Made by a program: the position numbers and the translations under genes. 47,129 nt of DNA. Source: an uncultured Ruminococcus sp. GTDB taxonomy: Bacteria; Bacillota; Clostridia; Oscillospirales; Ruminococcaceae. The notes below the pieces were generated by a model, which saw only the letters and a program-made list of their open reading frames with translations, was not told the DNA's origin and did not search any database. Positions 2,662 to 4,780 of the stretch are shown piece by piece. Each line of letters begins with the position of its first letter. The stretch's first letter is position 1. Where the stretch lies: contig CAMWTO010000002.1 in assembly GCA_947177205.1 (NCBI GenBank), forward strand, positions 1 through 47,129, read 5' to 3'.

Positions 2662-2690
2662 TTGACAGATCTTTCAAACTGTGCTATAAT
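2662..2690 (+). promoter_or_regulatory. Consensus promoter of the S10-spc-alpha operon
   Basis: TTGACA (2662-2667) - 17 bp - TATAAT (2685-2690), both hexamers perfect. Confidence 0.9.
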
Positions 2691-2696
2691 AATGAA

Positions 2697-3096
2697 AGTC
2701 CAGTAAAAATAATGGATTTATTGAAATTACTGGCTGATAATATGCGCAGAAGCGAAAGGTTGCTGGCGGTTTGTCAGGTAATTTTCGTGGAGTATGTTCG
2801 GTCATGAACCGGACGGCAAGGAATGATGACACGGTATGTGCAGAGATTAACAGACGGTTTTTTCAAATTTTGTCTGTTCGTGTCCCTGTGTGACTTCGTC
2901 CGGAATCTTGCCTTAAGATTTCGGCTTTTCTGTTTCCTGTCTCAGGAAACACCAGGCGCAGTGGAACAATCCCCTGCTCCGTCCCTGTGATTCCTGTTTC
3001 CCACAACTGCGCCCCCGTCTCTGAAATTTCCGGAAATTTCTGAAATACAAAAATTCAGAGTACAAGCTTATTTTTCTGCAAGGAGGCGAATAGAGA
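2697..3096 (+). ncRNA. Long structured 5' leader of the S10 operon (candidate r-protein leader/attenuator)
   Basis: ~400 nt without a convincing sense ORF between promoter and rpsJ; multiple perfect stems (see findings). Confidence 0.6.
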
Positions 3097-3411
3097 ATGG
3101 CAGTAAGCGAAAAAATCAGAATCAAGATCAAAGGCTATGAGCATGCGACTGTTGATGCAGCTGCAGTCAAGATTGTAGAGGCTGCAAAGAGAAGCGGTGC
3201 CAGCGTTTCCGGTCCGATCCCGCTGCCCACTGAAAAGGAGATTGTGACAATTCTCCGTGCAGTCCATAAATATAAGGACAGCCGTGAGCAGTTTGAACAG
3301 CGCACACACAAGCGTTTGATTGATGTGATCCGTCCCACAGACAAGACGGCTGATGCGCTCCGTAAACTGGAGCTCCCCGCAGGTGTTGACATTGTGATGG
3401 AAGTCAAGTAA
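3097..3411 (+). CDS. rpsJ: 30S ribosomal protein S10
   Basis: 104 aa, S10 sequence pattern ([15 protein letters not shown]...), AAGGAGG upstream, operon position. Confidence 0.98.
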
Positions 3412-3509
3412 TTCCTGTTTTCTTGATTATTTAATAATTTTTTTAAATAATCAGGTCATGTCGGAAAAATTTAATTTTCGACCAATAACCATAAGGAGGA
3501 AAAACCCAA

Positions 3510-4156: not shown

Positions 4157-4780
4157 ATGGCAACTGTAAAAGTATTTGATATGTCCGGTAATGAAGTTTC
4201 TTCCACAGAGCTGGCTGACAGCGTATTTGGCATTGAACCCAACCAGGCAGTCATGCACATGGCTGTTGTGAATTATCTGGCAAATCAGCGCCAGGGCACA
4301 CAGTCCACACTGACCAGAACAGAAGTCAGTGGCGGCGGCAAAAAGCCCTGGAGACAGAAGGGCACAGGCAACGCAAGACAGGGTTCTATCAGAGCACCGC
4401 AGTGGAGACACGGCGGCGTGGCACTTGGTCCGAAACCCAGAAGCTACCGTTATACACTCAACAAGAAAGTTCGTAGATTAGCGATGAAATCTGCACTTTC
4501 CGCAAAAGTCCAGGAGGGCAATCTGATTGTTCTGGATACGCTTACAATGGATGAGTTCAAGACAAAGAAAATTGCTGCAATGCTCAAAGCGCTCAATGTG
4601 GAGAAAAAAGCACTGATCGTCACAGCAGATGCAGATGTGAAAGTGTACAAGAGTGCAGCCAATCTTCCTGGTGTCAAGACAACACATGTAGGAACGCTGA
4701 ATGTCTATGATATTCTCAACGGCGGCAAGTTCATCGTTGCGAAGAATGCCATTGCAAAAATTGAGGAGGTGTATGCATGA
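4157..4780 (+). CDS. rplD: 50S ribosomal protein L4
   Basis: [35 protein letters not shown]. Confidence 0.98.

Follow-up and report, generated by a model that had tools for sequence, protein, structure and literature searches.

The window analysed here, a stretch of 47,129 nucleotides from an uncultured Ruminococcus sp. whose genome is 88.5% complete, carries an S10 operon that includes rpsJ and rplD; the nearest named relatives of its L4 protein are those of uncultured Ruminococcus and Clostridia MAGs. Upstream lie a histidine phosphatase gene (1163-1795, PF00300) and a gene for a 256-residue, apparently membrane-located protein with no Pfam match (1831-2601). Two strong hairpins rich in A+T lie in the gap between rpsJ and rplC (3412-3509; z -3.7, with 0/200 shuffles as stable) and may mark a processing site or a second control point. 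The 5' limit of the rpsJ leader is set by a promoter that matches the consensus at 12/12 positions and carries a TG extension; the sequence-only reading had called this promoter perfect, and it is also kept in the genus relatives, with TTGACA or TTGCAA as the -35 box and TATAAT or near variants as the -10 box. The promoter scan gave no second promoter on the + strand between the terminator and rpsJ. The 400-nt leader folds at -120 kcal/mol versus -106.6 kcal/mol for dinucleotide shuffles (z -2.3); as this is only modestly more stable than the shuffles, it is the comparison with relatives that decides. The features are collected in Table 1.

Table 1. Features of the S10-operon leader and the genes it precedes, in window coordinates.
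Feature	Position	Strand	Basis
Sigma-70-type promoter, TTGACA-17-TATAAT, extended -10	2662-2690	+	Sequence scan; kept across genus alignment
5'-terminal hairpin, 2700-2706/2727-2733	2700-2733	+	Pairing; same-place hairpin in genus leaders
RF03136 core: P1 2752-2754 and 2756-2759/2782-2788; P1b 2763-2767/2773-2777; P2 within 2796-2814	2739-2819	+	Covariance model
PL 5' strand: 2819-2824 with 2990-2995; 2826-2827 with 2987-2988; 2831-2834 with 2979-2982	2812-2834	+	Duplex prediction and co-variation
Variable arm A: base GACACGG 2828-2834/CCTGTGTG 2885-2892; apical stem 2849-2855/2872-2878	2828-2892	+	Co-variation
Intrinsic terminator: hairpin 2900-2924 and imperfect U-tract CTTTTCTGTTT (2925-2935)	2900-2935	+	Kept in genus and family leaders
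Hairpin H' after terminator, 2932-2939/2943-2950	2932-2950	+	Pairing; co-variation
ACRCMCGG-N4-GTGT element; window ACACCAGGCGCAGTGG, one departure from MCGG (CAGG)	2949-2964	+	Regular expression, column counts
PL 3' strand	2979-2995	+	Window duplex and co-variation
Putative C-rich anti-SD, CGCCCCC; 3015-3019 also outer PL partner	3010-3019	+	Count versus shuffles
Hairpin between anti-SD and SD, within window-specific extra sequence	3018-3060	+	Folding; missing in relatives
SD region AAGGAGGCGAA with conserved CGA extension	3080-3090	+	Count across leaders
rpsJ (ribosomal protein S10)	3097-3411	+	Pfam PF00338 Ribosomal_S10, E 1.4e-32
rplD (ribosomal protein L4), putative regulator	4157-4780	+	Pfam PF00573, E 2.9e-76

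The r-protein leader at the core of this region is of an already known kind. In a cmscan of the whole window, Rfam RF03136 was the sole family above its gathering score, with 50.1 bits against a gathering score of 35.1 over the full model length (1-81), and it sits where the family is expected, in the leader of the rpsJ (S10) operon, a placement kept in relatives; at a relaxed Rfam threshold the leader gave no credible family besides it. The family was found in 31/38 genomes of the genus and 269/299 of the family, and among 14 control genomes it matched only B. subtilis and L. lactis. The match and its conservation bear out the proposal, made in the sequence-only reading, that this is an r-protein leader, and the comparison with Rfam leaders suggested there shows that the core belongs to a catalogued family. 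Eckert and Weinberg (2020) treat S10 in Firmicutes as previously known and add many Clostridia examples without further discussion (PMC7247131); our literature search for the name "S10-Clostridia" gave no match, and in the literature searched we found no experiments on the ligand or the expression platform of RF03136. The Rfam model agrees with the window in sequence, structure and place upstream of rpsJ, but its 81 nt exclude the terminator, the ACRCMCGG element, the helix PL and the Shine-Dalgarno (SD) extension seen in the window's family. An upstream open reading frame starting at ATGATGA after the core was rejected, as its ATG is not kept in relatives.

All six stems picked out by the sequence-only reading do pair over their full length (7/7, 7/7, 7/7, 10/10, 8/8 and 8/8, with G-U counted). 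Short perfect stems would by themselves be weak evidence, and their support comes from relatives, which keep the 5' hairpin, the P2 stem, the terminator hairpin and a hairpin at the position of H'. At the place of the 5' hairpin other sequences pair in the genus leaders, for example TTCAGC/GCTGGA, TTCGG/CCGGA and TCCAA/TTGGA. The stem 2849-2855/2872-2878 belongs to the variable arm. The last stem, 2955-2962/3006-3013, is specific to the window, its 5' partner is missing in relatives and its predicted probability is only 0.3; we rejected it as a conserved element, and it may owe its existence to chance complementarity.

Co-variation was assessed from duplex energies, those of segments within one leader being set against those of segments taken from different leaders; the test uses no tree model, and the background of unrelated pairs controls for relatedness. 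An all-pairs map of 92 representatives (1596 window pairs, background s.d. 1.34) was anchored on the core, the terminator, the element and rpsJ, and a strict set of 48 leaders was de-duplicated more stringently. In the map P1 is the strongest co-varying helix (z -10; -6.05 in the 48 strict leaders) and, being a known helix, serves as a positive control for the map. The second-strongest signal in the map belongs to the helix that we call PL (z -8.5 to -9.5 family-wide, -8.66 in the 48 strict representatives), which starts immediately after RF03136, ends a little upstream of the SD region and encloses the arm, the terminator and the ACRCMCGG element. In the window PL is short, with 6 + 2 + 4 pairs and an outer 5 (2812-2816 with 3015-3019) whose 5' side overlaps the P2 3' strand; it has near zero probability in the window's own equilibrium fold, and single-sequence folding does not favour it. 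The terminator stem (z -6 in the 92 representatives), the base of arm A (z -5.2, and -4.2 in the strict set) and H' (z -4.75 in the strict set of 48) also co-vary.

The terminator-like element noticed at 2900-2936 has stood up well. At dG <= -10 a terminator lies between the core and rpsJ in 26/28 leaders of the genus and 27/28 of the family, versus 6/140 and 16/140 in the respective shuffled-leader controls; the genus leaders have at this place a hairpin CCGGAATC...GATTTCGG followed by T5-6. A terminator candidate precedes the ACRCMCGG element in 90/92 representatives (a count without shuffled control), and at least four T occur at -22 to -18 before that element in 87/92 leaders. The leader thus has the conserved internal G+C-containing hairpin and U-tract of an attenuator, although the U-tract of the window is imperfect and weaker than in most relatives. 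Equilibrium folding of the window forms the terminator with a probability of ~0.97 with no ligand present. Attenuators usually also have an antiterminator, although the E. coli S10 type does not need one, and the strict sets gave no co-varying candidate for such a structure. Two pairings of the terminator 5' arm look attractive by eye, one of 7 bp with the P2 3' strand (2809-2815/2897-2903 in the window), the other with the P1 3' strand (long in some relatives, among them L033, L041 and L047); both stayed within background under strict co-variation (z -1.3 and -1.4), with a weak signal in the genus only.

The ACRCMCGG element follows the U-tract at a fixed ~22 nt. A regular expression finds an element of this type in 121/124 family leaders whose rpsJ start was located, and the columns ACRC.CGG are almost invariant in the family leaders. 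Across 61 family genomes the pattern had 43 matches versus 6 for the reversed control, and most matches with comparable coordinates lie roughly 100-300 nt downstream of RF03136 (L175 and L176 are among the exceptions). With 5 matches in the window's own genome versus 3 for the reversed control, a genome-wide repeat was rejected. In some Faecalibacterium-like lineages, namely L171 and L172 (upstream of the leader) and L112, the promoter spacer between the -35 and -10 boxes has a form like CAACACCCGG..GTGTG and follows the ACRCMCGG-N4-GTGT pattern; in L120 and L124 it is similar but has CCGGG, and L119 and L122 differ. The likeness is either chance or a shared signal.

The SD sequence is extended as GGAGGCGA: CGA follows GGAGG in 113/124 rpsJ leaders versus 7/420 of the other genes that have a GGAGG SD, a background drawn from the window and related loci. 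The P2 3' strand bears the similar GGGCGA, and CGCC occurs upstream of the SD in 40/92 leaders versus 9.8 +/- 2.7 in shuffles. A switch by SD mimicry would fit the SD extension and the C-rich stretch. Segment-level co-variation was not significant for the anti-SD/SD pairing or for the pairing of the P2 3' strand with the segment after the element, as expected if these pairings hardly vary. The window's copy is somewhat degenerate, with its imperfect U-tract, CAGG for MCGG and ~70 extra nt before rpsJ; L068 and L069 have a long extra segment between the element and the SD, in a position comparable to that of the window's ~70 nt. In the genus, GCGCAG in the core (2744-2749) and CTGCGC before the SD (3007-3012) co-occur perfectly (11 leaders with both, 17 with neither). 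We keep a long-range pairing of the two as a lead only, for the co-occurrence probably reflects one clade.

Beyond the window's family the architecture varies. Several other Bacillota families have the SD immediately after RF03136, and their rpsJ begins ~80-110 nt after the start of the motif (L144, L148, L151, L153, L159 and L170 are examples); a protein bound to RF03136 would there overlap the ribosome site. In the window's family and in loci of f2, f4, f6 and f77, ~100 nt or more separate the core from the SD. The long-insert loci in other families (L155, L142, L143, L147, L152, L162 and L167) all have a CGG element of the ACAC/ACGC type, and in the five tested (L142, L143, L147, L152 and L155) a segment downstream of the element can pair with the stretch that follows P2. 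The insert between core and SD has the appearance of a domain that PL closes.

The S10 operon offers a classic example of feedback by r-proteins, elucidated in E. coli. In that species L4 is described as controlling both transcription and translation, acting at the attenuator through NusA pausing by stabilising the paused complex; the E. coli-type L4 site reportedly occurs in only some gamma-proteobacteria (PMC10931766). The E. coli leader is likewise long, structured, placed before rpsJ and equipped with an intrinsic attenuator, but its RNA structure is different and RF03136 is the sole credible match of the window's leader; the comparison with E. coli L4 drawn in the sequence-only reading therefore holds as an analogy between leader structures that are not homologous. 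We suggest, as a fairly probable reading, that the S10 operon is autoregulated through RF03136 by both termination and SD occlusion, the 5' binding domain being followed by a two-level expression platform. The ligand is probably L4, given the E. coli case and the position of rplD in the operon. The free r-protein would bind RF03136 during transcription and raise termination at 2900-2935. In transcripts that read through, PL would fold the inserted module out and bring RF03136 near the SD, as in the lineages without the insert. Two alternative partners are proposed for the C-rich stretch, the P2 3' strand (GGGCGA type) and the SD extension that matches it; once bound protein locks P2, the stretch would be free to pair with the SD, and translation would be blocked.

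Since no antiterminator co-varies and the terminator is predicted to form without ligand, that termination is regulated is something we infer, and there are two other accounts of the hairpin. It might be a real but constitutive terminator, acting as a fixed-ratio damper or marking where a short, stable leader RNA ends, as its stability without ligand in equilibrium folding and the lack of a co-varying antiterminator would suggest. We think this quite improbable, because the terminator is flanked by a known r-protein leader and the operon that this leader precedes, inside the conserved domain closed by PL, and because L4 in E. coli acts via NusA pausing, which makes the absence of an antiterminator compatible with regulation (PMC10931766). 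If termination is regulated, the lack of a co-varying antiterminator makes a mechanism in the style of E. coli NusA more likely than a riboswitch-like alternative. Alternatively, control might be exerted on translation only, as in the lineages whose RF03136 adjoins the SD, the hairpin then branching off the domain that PL closes or serving as a 3'-end or processing signal: PL co-varies more than the terminator stem, no antiterminator co-varies, several other families lack the insert, and at least one long leader from another family (L147) shows PL and a ACACCCGG element but no evident U-tract hairpin. Against this, 87/92 leaders keep a T-tract at a fixed place directly behind a G+C-containing hairpin, which a simple side branch would not require, and we regard this account as unlikely.

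It is hardly credible that the stems reflect fortuitous pairing in AT-rich intergenic DNA. Short stems are common by chance and the whole-leader z is only -2.3, but the Rfam match, the conservation and the co-variation refute the idea for the leader as a whole.

What appears new relative to the literature searched is a conserved composite platform beyond the RF03136 core. We propose tentatively, as a possibility that falls short of probable, that the window's family and some other Bacillota families share an undescribed inserted regulatory domain in which PL closes the terminator and the ACRCMCGG element, the SD copies the P2 3' strand (GGGCGA/GGAGGCGA) and the C-rich stretch switches between core and SD. 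The PL strands, the element and the SD extension offer concrete nucleotides for mutation, and an extension of the Rfam model is suggested. The comparison shows the RF03136 core leading into a conserved composite platform in one large gut Clostridia family and directly into the SD in several others; if the inserted-domain reading is true, dual transcriptional and translational control of the S10 operon would have arisen independently of the E. coli system.
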